Shown here in pieces: positions 16,031 through 20,372 of a stretch of 49,015 bases of DNA. This stretch comes from an uncultured Bacillota bacterium. GTDB lineage: Bacteria; Bacillota_I; Bacilli_A; Erysipelotrichales; Erysipelotrichaceae. The stretch lies in the NCBI GenBank assembly GCA_946537295.1, contig CAMNFQ010000005.1, positions 1 through 49,015 on the forward strand, read 5' to 3'. Position 1 is the first letter of the stretch. Every line of letters starts with the position of its first letter. The position numbers and the translations under genes are program-made. The notes below the pieces were generated by a model. That model worked only from the letters and a program-made list of their open reading frames with translations, made no database searches and was not told the DNA's origin.

Positions 16031-16429
16031 GTGAAAGAGCTGTCAGTAAGATTAACAGAAGGTGCAGATCTTAAGCGTTCAATTGAAGAATTGTGCCTGA
16101 AAAATGGTGTTGATACAGCAGTGCTTGTCTCTTGTGTCGGTAGCCTGAGCAAAATTAAAATCAGGCTCGCTAAAGCTGTCGATTATCTTGAAGAAGAAAA
16201 TGATTATGAGATCATTTCGGTAAATGGTACGATCAGTAAGGGCAAAGCACATCTACATATTGCCGCATCAGATTCTGATGGAAAACTCATTGGAGGGCAT
16301 TTGTGTGAAGGCTGCATCATCAACACGACCTGTGAACTTGTGCTGATGGTTCTGGAAGAATATTCGTCATATAGAGAATATGACCAGAACACTGGATATA
16401 AAGAAATAGTTTTTAAGGAAATGAGGTAG
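16031..16429 (+). CDS. PPC-domain (DUF296) protein
   Basis: A single PPC/DUF296 domain, 132 aa if translation starts at GTG 16031. The family forms trimers and is found in plant AT-hook proteins and as stand-alone bacterial proteins. Seen here: the early RLTEGADL strand, VLVSCVGSLSKIKIRLA, and the metal-site region GKAHLHIAASDSDGKLIGGHL, whose three His fit the zinc site known for bacterial members. An upstream in-frame ATG at 15977 would read through the divergent promoter, so I prefer the GTG. It is 5 nt before a zinc-type G3E GTPase gene, which points to a metal-linked role. DNA binding is not shown by the sequence. Confidence 0.82.
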   Translation: MKELSVRLTEGADLKRSIEELCLKNGVDTAVLVSCVGSLSKIKIRLAKAVDYLEEENDYEIISVNGTISKGKAHLHIAASDSDGKLIGGHLCEGCIINTTCELVLMVLEEYSSYREYDQNTGYKEIVFKEMR

Positions 16430-16434
16430 ATTGT

Positions 16435-17442
16435 ATGATTAATGTTTATATTGTTTCAGGTTTTTTAGGAGCAGGAAAGACCACTTTTATTCAGAAACTG
16501 CTGAGTGAAAAGAAATTCGATAAGGTAATGCTTCTGGAAAATGAATTTGGAGAAGTTGGTGTCGATGGGGCTTTCTTTGACAAGTCATTAAATATCAAGG
16601 AAATCAATAACGGCTGTATCTGCTGTTCGCTGCAGGGTGATTTTGAAACAGCTCTGGAAGAGATTGAAGATATGGGTGTTTCTGATCTGATCATTGAACC
16701 TTCAGGTGTTGGTAAGCTTTCAGAAATAATCAATGTTGTAAAGGCTGATCCGGATTTCAGAATCGTTTCGCACATCTGTATCGTAGATGTCAAAACATGC
16801 AGAAAATATCATCTTAATTTCAAGGAATATTTCAACGATCAGGTTGCAGCTGCAAACGCTATTATCCTTTCTCATACCGATGTAGCTGATGAAGATACTA
16901 TCAACAAGGCTATCGATATCGTAAAGGAACTCAATTCTGATGCGCAAATCGTCACTAAACCAATCAGTGAGTATTCAATTGAAGAATTGCTTAATATAAT
17001 CGTTTCCGGTGGAGATATCCTTCCAGAATTTGAGGAAGAACATCATCATCACCATCACGAGTGTTGCGAAGGAGAGGAGTGTGAATGTCATCATGATCAT
17101 GAGCATCATCACGATGATGAAGATGAACATGAACATCATCACCATCACGATCATGATCACGACCACCATCATCACCACCATGATGATGAACTGTTCAAGA
17201 ATCAGATCCTTCGTCCAGCTCGCAAGTTCACAAAAGCAGAACTTGAAGATATTCTGAAGAAGATCCCGGAAGATATTATCAGAGTAAAAGGTTATGTACA
17301 TGGCGATAATGAAACGCTGTACTTCAATTATGTTCTGAATGAATATAATGTCTATTTTGGTGAGGCCAGAGATGAAGCTCTTGTTTCAGTAATTGGAACA
17401 GAAATAGACGAACACTATTTCGAGGAACTGTTCCATGACTAA
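16435..17442 (+). CDS. G3E-family GTPase (COG0523, CobW-like) with His-rich metal-binding insert
   Basis: Probable metallochaperone GTPase. The 335 aa start with Walker A GFLGAGKT (residues 9-16). The CxCC metal motif is at Cys61, Cys63 and Cys64, and ENEFGEVGVDG is the switch region. The usual NKxD guanine motif appears as SHTD. Residues about 203-252 are a dense His/Asp/Glu stretch with several Cys (ECCEGEECEC), encoded at 17041-17190. A CobW C-terminal domain follows. COG0523 members with His-rich loops are tied to zinc handling; nickel or cobalt cannot be excluded. It overlaps the second GTPase gene by 8 nt. No Zur-like operator was recognised. Confidence 0.92.
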   Translation: MINVYIVSGFLGAGKTTFIQKLLSEKKFDKVMLLENEFGEVGVDGAFFDKSLNIKEINNGCICCSLQGDFETALEEIEDMGVSDLIIEPSGVGKLSEIINVVKADPDFRIVSHICIVDVKTCRKYHLNFKEYFNDQVAAANAIILSHTDVADEDTINKAIDIVKELNSDAQIVTKPISEYSIEELLNIIVSGGDILPEFEEEHHHHHHECCEGEECECHHDHEHHHDDEDEHEHHHHHDHDHDHHHHHHDDELFKNQILRPARKFTKAELEDILKKIPEDIIRVKGYVHGDNETLYFNYVLNEYNVYFGEARDEALVSVIGTEIDEHYFEELFHD

Positions 17443-18364
17443 ACCGGTATATGTCTTTTCCGGATTTCTTGATTCAGGCAAGACTACTGCAATTAAAGGA
17501 ACCTTACGCAATCCCCGTTTTAATGAAGGTGAATCTTCATTGATCATCTGTTTTGAACAGGGTGATGTGGAATATGAAGAAAAGTTTCTTAAGCTGACTA
17601 ATTCCCAGGTTCTATATCTTGATTCTGTCAATGATCTGACGATCGAGAAACAGAAGCAGATCGATAAGGAATATGATGTGGAAAGAATCTTCATTGAACT
17701 GAATGGTATGGAAGATGACAACATCTTATACAATACCGGTTTTATCAAGGATTGGGAACTTGCCCAGACTTTGACAACAATCGATGCTTCAAAGTTTACG
17801 ATCTTTATGCAGAACATGCGTCAGTTTCTGTATAACCATGTCGTAAATGCTGAGGTTGTCATCTTAAACAGATCTGATGGCGTTGATAAACGTTATCTGC
17901 GTAATAATCTGAAATCAATAAATCAGTATATTGAACTTATCTATGAAGATAAGAATGGTAATGTAACAAATAAGATTGAAGATGAGCTGTTTGATACCAG
18001 CAAAGATCTTGATATCTCTGATATGGATTATGGTCTCTGGTTCATGGATGCTGTTGATAATCCGATGAAATATGATAAGAAGAATCTCAGTATCAAGGTA
18101 AAATATGCCGGGAAGATCGATGAATATGATAATGTATTGATCATGGGCAGAAAGGCTATGGTATGTTGTGCGGAAGATATCACTGATATCGCCTTACCTT
18201 GTCTTGGCTTACATGAAAAGGATATAGATAAAGATAAATATTATAAACTCAGCGGCGTAGCTCGCTGTATACAGAATGAAGAGGGCATAAAGATGTGCGC
18301 TTTAAATGTTAAGAAATTTGAAGTAGCAGATGCACCAAAAGATGAACTTGTAACATTCAATTAG
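17435..18364 (+). CDS. Second G3E-family GTPase, lacking the CxCC motif
   Basis: A CobW/HypB-superfamily GTPase of 309 aa with Walker A GFLDSGKT (residues 10-17), IFIELNGM near Walker B and NRSD as the guanine motif. The metal-binding CxCC and the His-rich loop of its neighbour are absent. The C-terminal part instead carries scattered Cys (MVCCAEDI, LPCLGL, ARCIQ, KMCAL). It starts 8 nt inside the first GTPase gene, so the two are co-translated and may work as a pair. The missing CxCC argues for a different partner or a regulatory role. Substrate unknown. Confidence 0.88.
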   Translation: MTKPVYVFSGFLDSGKTTAIKGTLRNPRFNEGESSLIICFEQGDVEYEEKFLKLTNSQVLYLDSVNDLTIEKQKQIDKEYDVERIFIELNGMEDDNILYNTGFIKDWELAQTLTTIDASKFTIFMQNMRQFLYNHVVNAEVVILNRSDGVDKRYLRNNLKSINQYIELIYEDKNGNVTNKIEDELFDTSKDLDISDMDYGLWFMDAVDNPMKYDKKNLSIKVKYAGKIDEYDNVLIMGRKAMVCCAEDITDIALPCLGLHEKDIDKDKYYKLSGVARCIQNEEGIKMCALNVKKFEVADAPKDELVTFN

Positions 18365-18373
18365 GAGAATACC

Positions 18374-19210
18374 ATGAACTTTTTAAAAGCAATCTTTTTT
18401 GGGATTATTGAAGGAATAACAGAATGGATGCCGGTTTCATCAACGGCACATATGAAGATCCTTAATGCGATCATGCCTTTATCAGTCAGTGCAGAATTCT
18501 ATGAAGTGTTTGAAGTTGTTATTCAGCTTGGAGCTATCTTGGCACTGTTACTGATCTTCTGGAACAAGGTATGGCCTTTTGGAAAAACAAAGAATCCTTT
18601 GGGTAAAGGTATTCTGGCGAATGTTAAAAAGGATAAGTTCTATCTTTGGATCAAGATCATTATTGCCTGTTTACCGGCGATCATTTTTGAACTATTCCTG
18701 GAAGACCTGTTTACATTTGTAACACCAGAAAATGAAATGACTATTATCGGAATCGCTCTGATTCTGGTCGGTATCATTTTCATTATTGTTGAGTATCTGA
18801 TCAAAGATCGTAAACCGATCGTTGAAACAACTAAGCAGATCACATATATGCAAGCTATAACCATTGGTCTGGCTCAGCTGGTTGCGGCCTTATTTCCAGG
18901 TGTTTCCAGATCTGGGGCAACAATCATTGCTGCTTTGATCATGGGTATATCACGTTCTACTGCAACTGAATTTACCTTTGAACTGGCTATACCAGTCATG
19001 TTTGGTGCTTCACTGATGAAGATCGTCAAATATGGTGCTGCCATAACATTCTCTGAAATTCTGATATTGATCATCGGTTGTGTATTTGCATTCGTTGTAT
19101 CACTGTTCATGATCAGATTCATTATCAGCTATATTAAGAAGAATAATTTTGTCCTGTTTGGTATCTATAGGATCCTGATGGGAATTGTTGTATTACTGTT
19201 ATTAAGATAA
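18374..19210 (+). CDS. uppP: Undecaprenyl-diphosphatase UppP (BacA)
   Basis: An integral membrane phosphatase that recycles undecaprenyl pyrophosphate to the lipid carrier used for cell-wall synthesis. The 278 aa contain the hallmark EGITEWMPVSSTAH near the N terminus and PGVSRSGATI in the middle, with about eight hydrophobic segments. An AGGAGA site precedes ATG 18374, nine bases after the GTPase stop. It confers basal bacitracin tolerance in other bacteria. Its place in a metal-GTPase operon has no obvious mechanistic explanation. Confidence 0.96.
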   Translation: MNFLKAIFFGIIEGITEWMPVSSTAHMKILNAIMPLSVSAEFYEVFEVVIQLGAILALLLIFWNKVWPFGKTKNPLGKGILANVKKDKFYLWIKIIIACLPAIIFELFLEDLFTFVTPENEMTIIGIALILVGIIFIIVEYLIKDRKPIVETTKQITYMQAITIGLAQLVAALFPGVSRSGATIIAALIMGISRSTATEFTFELAIPVMFGASLMKIVKYGAAITFSEILILIIGCVFAFVVSLFMIRFIISYIKKNNFVLFGIYRILMGIVVLLLLR

Positions 19211-19211
19211 G

Positions 19212-20372
19212 ATGGACTACAAACTATTAGGTGGAATATTTCTGGAAGGAGTTCTCTCGTTTCTGTCTCCTTGTGTCCTGCCCCTGATACCTTTGTATAT
19301 GACATATCTTGCCGGCGATAATAAACAGACAGATGAAGAAGGGAATGTGCATTATGACAAAGCGAAAGTGTTTATCACAACACTTTTCTTTGTGCTTGGT
19401 ATATCTTTAACCTTTGTCCTTCTTACTGCTTCACTTAAAACGATCGCCGGTTCCATAAATAAGTATGCCGAGATCATATCAATTATTGGTGGAACCTTAC
19501 TGATAGTCTTTGGTCTTCATGAACTGGGAATCATCCATATCGATCTTCTGAATAAAGAGTTAAAACTTAAAATGGATCTGCATTTAGAAAAGATGAATTA
19601 CCTTAAAGCCTTTATTCTTGGCTTTGTCTTTTCTTTAGGATGGTCGCCTTGTATTGGACCATTACTGTCAAACGCCATCTTACTTGCGGCGACAGATCCC
19701 CAAGGATATATCTATATAATTGTCTATGCTTTGGGTTTGATCATACCGTTTATCATAACCGGATTGTTCACAACATCTGTACTTAATCTGATAAATAAAA
19801 ATAAGAAGATCCTTAACTACGTCCTTAAAATAGCTGGTATCGTTCTTATCCTGTTTGGCATCTATATGATCCATCAGGCATCAGAAAAGATCCTGATAGC
19901 TAAAGAACTTGAAACAACCCACAATTCACAAAGCAGCACAGAAAATATGATCCTGGATTATGAATTTGTTGATGAAAAGGGCAATAAGATCAGATTGTCA
20001 GATTATAAAGGAAAATATCTCTTCCTAAATTTCATGACAACCTGGTGCACATATTGTGAGATGGAAAGACCAGAATATATCAAATTTGCGGAAAATAAAG
20101 ATATCAAATGTCTTTATGTCATGTCACCATTAAATGAAAATGATGGCATGGAAAGCATAAATAAATATCTGAATGATAATGAAATACCGATCACAACTCT
20201 GATCGATACCGAAGGATCGCTGTTCTATTATTGTGGTATCTCAGGATATCCGACTATCTATGTAGTTGATCCTGATGGCGAATTCCTGGCCTATGCTTCC
20301 GGAGTTCTTGATCTGGAAGGTTTCAATGGCTTGTATGATTACGCCAAAGAGCTCTATGAAAACAAACAGTAA
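19212..20372 (+). CDS. CcdA-TlpA fusion: membrane thiol transporter with extracytoplasmic thioredoxin domain
   Basis: Predicted to carry reducing power across the membrane to an outer-face thioredoxin. Residues 1-225 form a six-helix CcdA/DsbD-beta domain with paired Cys in LSPCVLP (Cys21) and WSPCIGP (Cys147). After a Ser-rich linker, residues about 245-386 are a TlpA/ResA-like domain with WCTYC (Cys279, Cys282) and the cis-Pro loop GYPT (Pro347). CcdA and TlpA are usually separate proteins, though fusions are known in Firmicutes. No cytochrome maturation or MsrAB gene is adjacent. A plausible client is the secreted lipoprotein at 45165, but that is inference. It abuts the opposing GDPD gene with no spacer. 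Confidence 0.92.
   Translation: MDYKLLGGIFLEGVLSFLSPCVLPLIPLYMTYLAGDNKQTDEEGNVHYDKAKVFITTLFFVLGISLTFVLLTASLKTIAGSINKYAEIISIIGGTLLIVFGLHELGIIHIDLLNKELKLKMDLHLEKMNYLKAFILGFVFSLGWSPCIGPLLSNAILLAATDPQGYIYIIVYALGLIIPFIITGLFTTSVLNLINKNKKILNYVLKIAGIVLILFGIYMIHQASEKILIAKELETTHNSQSSTENMILDYEFVDEKGNKIRLSDYKGKYLFLNFMTTWCTYCEMERPEYIKFAENKDIKCLYVMSPLNENDGMESINKYLNDNEIPITTLIDTEGSLFYYCGISGYPTIYVVDPDGEFLAYASGVLDLEGFNGLYDYAKELYENKQ

Follow-up and report, generated by a model that had tools for sequence, protein, structure and literature searches.

Two overlapping genes for G3E GTPases, here termed G3E-1 and G3E-2, lie in a 49,015-nucleotide stretch of DNA (the window) from an uncultured Bacillota bacterium of the Erysipelotrichaceae (GenBank assembly GCA_946537295.1, contig CAMNFQ010000005.1, positions 1 to 49,015). 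We find that the pair is a real, widespread, and obligate two-gene unit, and that the row of five genes in which it stands here (16031-20372) is a local extension. Our preferred reading, to which we assign a probability of roughly 60%, is that the two GTPases act as an obligate module for transition-metal trafficking, most probably of zinc. All five open reading frames (ORFs) of the row are present with the coordinates given in the initial annotation, which had proposed a metal module led by a PPC domain protein. A delivery role, with zinc as the best candidate, remains probable for the two GTPases, but the module consists of the GTPase pair and not of the PPC-led set.

G3E-1 (16435-17442, plus strand) has an N-terminal CobW/HypB/UreG G domain (PF02492, E = 8.8e-37), a CobW_C domain (PF07683, E = 2.7e-6, over the family cut-off), and the motif GCICC at residues 60-64. 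Judged by these three features, it is a regular COG0523 protein. As annotated initially, it further carries a His/Cys/Asp stretch of about 50 residues, which spans residues 197-250 (17023-17184, plus strand) and whose 54 residues include 26 His, 21 Asp/Glu, and 4 Cys. Both motifs recur throughout the 123 distinct complete pairs used for our motif tally, as GCxCC is found in 123/123 G3E-1 proteins and all of them carry at least 8 His per 60 residues. G3E-1 is the presumed metal donor of the pair.

G3E-2 (17435-18364, plus strand) overlaps the G3E-1 ORF by 8 bases. Its G domain (residues 4-161; PF02492 cobW, E = 4.8e-13) retains an intact Walker A motif (GFLDSGKT), whereas CxCC is absent from all 123 G3E-2 sequences, none of which has more than 5 His per 60 residues. 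The overlap, the preserved GTPase core, and the loss of CxCC were thus correctly described before. However, the cysteines then regarded as scattered include the invariant C244-C245 of a domain that had gone unrecognized. Pfam gives no match to CobW_C in G3E-2; instead, residues 183-304 are occupied by DUF1980_C (PF21537, E = 2.6e-5; TIGR03943, E = 1.3e-7), a domain of YcgQ-type proteins that is encoded at 17981-18361 (plus strand). The window protein lies close to the PF21537 cut-off of 25.9 bits, scoring 27 bits in the profile search of the genome and 24.3 bits, just below the cut-off, when scanned alone with hmmscan, while G3E-2 orthologues reach 82 bits. In its own genome, the profile search places G3E-2 and one paralogue above the cut-off. 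The whole-model TIGR03943 score of G3E-2 is 31.3 bits and does not reach the cut-off of 88.8, and the N-terminal membrane domain of DUF1980 (PF09323) has no Pfam match in the protein.

The AlphaFold2 model of G3E-2 has a mean predicted local distance difference test score (pLDDT) of 89.7. Nearest to its G domain are the folds of HypB, YjiA, and UreG (VIA-align Z 12.7-14.1; Foldseek HypB 3.8e-7). Modelled alone, the DUF1980_C domain is predicted with a pLDDT of 92.6 to adopt an OB fold, which matches PriB/SSB in Foldseek as well as Ten1 and MCM N-domains (VIA Z about 8-9). A DNA-binding function suggested by these matches was set aside, since the OB fold is common and uninformative on function. 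The C-terminus of G3E-2 is a DUF1980_C OB fold, not a degraded CobW domain. Within it, R239, C244, C245, and D248 are invariant across the 123 sequences, and the CC together with the following D is largely common to G3E-2, YcgQ, and the DUF1980_C lipoproteins linked to znu genes.

For the linkage tally, neighbourhoods were fetched around G3E-2 matches and genes were called by a simple script, yielding 143 loci with a strong G3E-2. In 136 of these, G3E-1 was called as the adjacent upstream gene. A tblastn recheck of 13 loci with a missed G3E-1 or pair recovered an upstream G3E in most, while the rest lay at contig edges; the sole true exception among the 13 was the G3E-2 paralogue of the own genome. 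The genes of 56 of the 123 pairs overlap, those of 46 more are at most 20 bases apart, and one pair is separated by 470 bases. As the difference between the first and the second protein (GCxCC versus no CxCC) is kept in 123/123 pairs, the arrangement seen in the window is more than chance. Among 147 relatives, 97 have G3E-2 homologues and 93 have G3E-1, and the two sets coincide but for a few draft genomes. Only G3E-2 was found in four drafts (G022, G049, G123, and G128), in at least two of which the match lies at a contig end, and in G083 a distant COG0523 protein was matched by both searches. The pairwise distances of G3E-1 and G3E-2 correlate with r = 0.72, a value that common descent alone could produce.

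The pair, carried by many gut Firmicutes, recurs well outside the close relatives of the window, whose nearest named records are uncultured Erysipelotrichaceae metagenome-assembled genomes. It is found in both families of Erysipelotrichales, in further families of the class Bacilli, in Lachnospiraceae, and in Clostridium, with Erysipelotrichaceae, Holdemania, Butyrivibrio, Eisenbergiella, and Clostridium beijerinckii as named carriers. Across the phylum to which G549, a Lachnospiraceae-type carrier, belongs, the pair is rare: an evenly drawn set of 249 genomes had a full-length G3E-2 in 4.

Most of the evidence that ties the pair to zinc comes through DUF1980_C, and this attribution is supported by the settings of the domain elsewhere. 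In five genomes (L234-L238), a DUF1980_C lipoprotein of about 180 residues is encoded by the last gene after znuA-znuC-znuB, a row preceded in most of them by a Fur-family gene. Two ZnuA proteins of such lipoprotein-closed rows carry a ZinT domain, and a further locus (L268) repeats this arrangement except that an additional ORF separates znuB from the lipoprotein gene. YcgQ, in turn, adjoins a YcgR (ArsP_1) permease in L240 and closes the row ZnuA-ZnuC-ZnuB-Fur-YcgR-YcgQ in L273. Both kinds of GTPase meet these proteins at L272:4910-9610, where ZnuA, YcgR, YcgQ, a CxCC G3E with CobW_C, and a CxCC-less G3E of 214 residues stand in one row. By eye, a hydrophobic C-terminal stretch of this CxCC-less G3E resembles a transmembrane helix. 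In C. beijerinckii, two CxCC-less G3E domains are fused to ArsP_1 permeases of the YcgR type beside YcgQ (L269:8174-9814 and L270:5334-6938). The fused GTPases share the E-x-N-G form of Walker B with G3E-2 and cluster with it in the tree (support 91/82, not starred). Moreover, four Lachnospiraceae loci (L135, L158, L161, and L164) encode ZnuA downstream of the pair itself; the last two of them also have an ABC ATPase, and L161 has an ABC-3 permease as well.

These last loci, together with L272, speak against the idea that the pair serves another metal such as nickel, cobalt, or iron for one enzyme, for example an alcohol dehydrogenase or a hydrogenase, and that the zinc links are confined to stand-alone DUF1980_C proteins. 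We regard this as unlikely, although nickel and cobalt chaperones occur among the G3E relatives, the own genome encodes a HypB-like GTPase, and Fe-type alcohol dehydrogenase genes adjoin the solitary G3E-2-like copies described below. Read by eye, the genes that recur around the pair include no recognized hydrogenase or cobalamin gene. Even less probable is that the pair buffers or detoxifies zinc together with an exporter instead of delivering it. The long His stretches would suit such a function, as would the match of the YcgR-type permease to the SO_0444 Cu/Zn efflux family, which stays below that family's cut-off. The contexts, however, are those of zinc importers, including ZinT-ZnuA. None of the recurring neighbours was recognized as an exporter, and the own genome lacks an ArsP_1 permease match.

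Several observations weigh against zinc trafficking by an obligate pair. Most pair loci have no adjoining zinc transporter, and zinc as the metal is deduced from neighbours only. Given the sub-threshold match of the YcgR-type permeases to the SO_0444 Cu/Zn efflux family, metal may flow in either direction. Upstream of the operons, whose starts were guessed from gene spacing, we scanned for Zur, Fur, PerR, AdcR, and MntR-like boxes; a Zur motif (B. subtilis type, few variants) is as frequent as in shuffled sequences. Fur-like palindromes with at most 3 mismatches occur at 13 loci versus 4 in shuffles, which is too weak to use. Finally, solitary G3E-2-like genes with DUF1980_C and without G3E-1 exist in the own genome (contig C26, L093:11435-12361) and at L274:7662-8597, so that G3E-2 can act alone. 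In the tree, these copies branch at different points within the G3E-2 clade. Although the two genomes are distant, the copy adjoins a gene for an Fe-type alcohol dehydrogenase in each.

The own genome, which is 95% complete, gave no match to the ArsP_1 permease (PF03773) or to an ABC-3 zinc permease. It contains one solitary gene for a ZnuA-like lipoprotein (L271:10292-11299, contig C4) beside a DNA polymerase I-like gene and housekeeping genes.

How might the two GTPases work together? As a COG0523 metallochaperone, G3E-1 would gather and hold metal through its His stretch and the CxCC motif in the GTP-responsive switch. G3E-2, with the same fold but without CxCC and with its CC..D-bearing OB-fold domain, is presumed to be the partner or acceptor GTPase. 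The G domains of both proteins would contact each other in a nucleotide-dependent manner, as in HypB and other SIMIBI GTPases, and GTP hydrolysis would power the handover of metal by the CxCC/His donor, either to the CC..D domain or to a client recruited by that domain. Our data show the obligate pairing, the domains and motifs, the predicted fold, and the genomic links to zinc import, while the identity of the metal, the dimerization, the direction of transfer, the clients, and the sequence of evolutionary steps are inferred. Nucleotide-dependent dimers are general among SIMIBI GTPases, HypB and UreG included. The HypB dimer has been demonstrated (PMC9164220), and for the COG0523 protein ZigA of S. 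aureus a homodimer with Zn-dependent GTPase activity has been reported (PMC13339975). By analogy, the partner of G3E-1 in the window system may be the product of the second gene rather than G3E-1 itself.

In place of an acceptor, G3E-2 could be a regulatory partner, such as an activator or an adaptor to the membrane or a client, that is never metal-loaded and whose CC..D is structural or forms a disulphide. It lacks CxCC and any His-rich stretch comparable to that of G3E-1 (at most 5 His per 60 residues), its OB fold is a common protein- and nucleic-acid-binding fold, and CC..D also occurs in extracytoplasmic lipoproteins. Yet C244, C245, and D248 never vary among the 123 sequences and for the most part recur in YcgQ and the znu-linked lipoproteins. 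This pattern suggests a metal or redox site and not a structural feature of one lineage. We consider a purely regulatory role doubtful, albeit the foremost competitor of the trafficking module.

The trafficking module shares parts with several known systems. With the COG0523 proteins ZagA/YciC, ZigA, ZNG1, YjiA, and CobW, G3E-1 has the G domain, the switch CxCC, the His stretch, and CobW_C in common, and G3E-2 the G-domain fold. The known members, however, are described as single proteins or homodimers with CxCC, whereas an obligate CxCC-less second GTPase is present here. HypB and UreG, the nearest solved folds to the GTPase domain of G3E-2, couple nucleotides to metal transfer between partners, as we propose for the pair, but they are nickel-specific and possess neither DUF1980_C nor an obligate second G3E gene. 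In the signal recognition particle system, the paralogues Ffh and FtsY, both SIMIBI-class GTPases, operate as an obligate pair. This is an analogy of working only, as Ffh-FtsY serves protein targeting and has other accessory domains, and we claim no homology beyond the G-domain fold. With the YcgR-YcgQ system (ScfA-ScfB in Streptococcus pyogenes; ArsP_1 permease plus TIGR03943/DUF1980), G3E-2 shares DUF1980_C with its CC..D, and CxCC-less G3E domains adjoin or are fused to YcgR in some clostridia. Unlike YcgQ, G3E-2 has no DUF1980 N-terminal membrane domain.

These likenesses suggest how G3E-2 originated, apparently by fusion of a DUF1980_C domain, derived from a YcgQ-type partner, with a CxCC-less GTPase of the type found beside, or fused to, YcgR-type permeases in other clostridia. 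A more specific version of the trafficking module, which we put forward tentatively and consider less likely than not, is an asymmetric relay: a GTP-gated heterodimer of a CxCC/His donor and a CxCC-less CC..D acceptor would pass on zinc. This soluble relay would descend from a membrane system in which YcgR-YcgQ was coupled to GTPases.

The remaining genes of the row accompany the pair in few lineages. Upstream lies the gene for a PPC/PCC domain protein (16031-16429, plus strand; PF03479, E = 2.2e-27), whose H74, H76, and H90 align with the HLH...H site of PDB 2p6y (1.4e-29), in agreement with the His cluster annotated initially. UppP, an undecaprenyl-diphosphatase (18374-19210, plus strand; BacA 1.4e-73, NF001391 above its cut-off), and a fusion of DsbD_TM with a TlpA/ResA-like thioredoxin bearing WCTYC (19212-20372, plus strand; DsbD_TM 7e-16, AhpC-TSA 2e-14) directly follow G3E-2 on the same strand, as had been described for UppP and the thiol transporter. 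An AlkD-like gene and a GDPD gene on the opposite strand flank the five-gene row, one at each end.

That all five proteins form one system for metal sensing or delivery to envelope enzymes appears highly unlikely to us. The genes are co-directional and tightly spaced in most of this genus, and a few further genera of the family, Holdemania among them, also have UppP and DsbD-TlpA close to the pair. Compared with the near-universal G3E-1, however, PPC adjoins the pair in 27/143 loci, so the expected neighbourhood of PPC beside a COG0523 pair does exist but is confined to this genus and a few close genera. Since PPC is also encoded away from the pair, and in genomes that lack the pair altogether, we dropped it as an integral part of the module. 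UppP and DsbD-TlpA are near the pair in 19/143 and 26/143 loci, respectively, and by kinship labels and record names this linkage is limited to one family. Accordingly, the proposed service to envelope enzymes does not hold in general and was abandoned after this tally.

Between PPC and G3E-1, five loci (L050, L052, L053, L099, and L100) encode unnamed proteins of about 93-155 residues; two of these were searched and had no Pfam match. At about ten loci in the second family of the order, tgt-queA and a gene for a small Cys-rich protein, which we take to be QueH-like although no family match confirms it, lie downstream of the pair (e.g., L128:8991-11814). Tgt is a zinc enzyme. The distance to the pair and the intervening genes vary, and this proximity probably reflects local synteny rather than a functional link.

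COG0523 proteins have been characterized by their CxCC motif (PMC9164220; PMC2770081), by which Haas 2009 also picked the members of the family (PMC2770081). Lacking CxCC, G3E-2 would consequently fall outside such surveys. The literature we searched contains no mention of TIGR03943 and refers to DUF1980 only in a paper on an S. aureus lipoprotein; the main COG0523 review (Edmonds 2021) lay outside its scope, and an earlier mention of the pair is possible.

How COG0523 GTPases select and load their clients is an open question on which the pair bears. The YcgQ/YcgR homologues ScfB/ScfA are important for the fitness of S. pyogenes in tissue, their function not being known (PMC5584981). As the pair shares a domain with YcgQ, it offers, along with the loci in which GTPases adjoin or are fused to YcgR, a testable link of two unexplained families to zinc handling in gut bacteria. 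If the asymmetric relay and its descent from a membrane system were true, this would also account for the role of the uncharacterized YcgQ/ScfB family.

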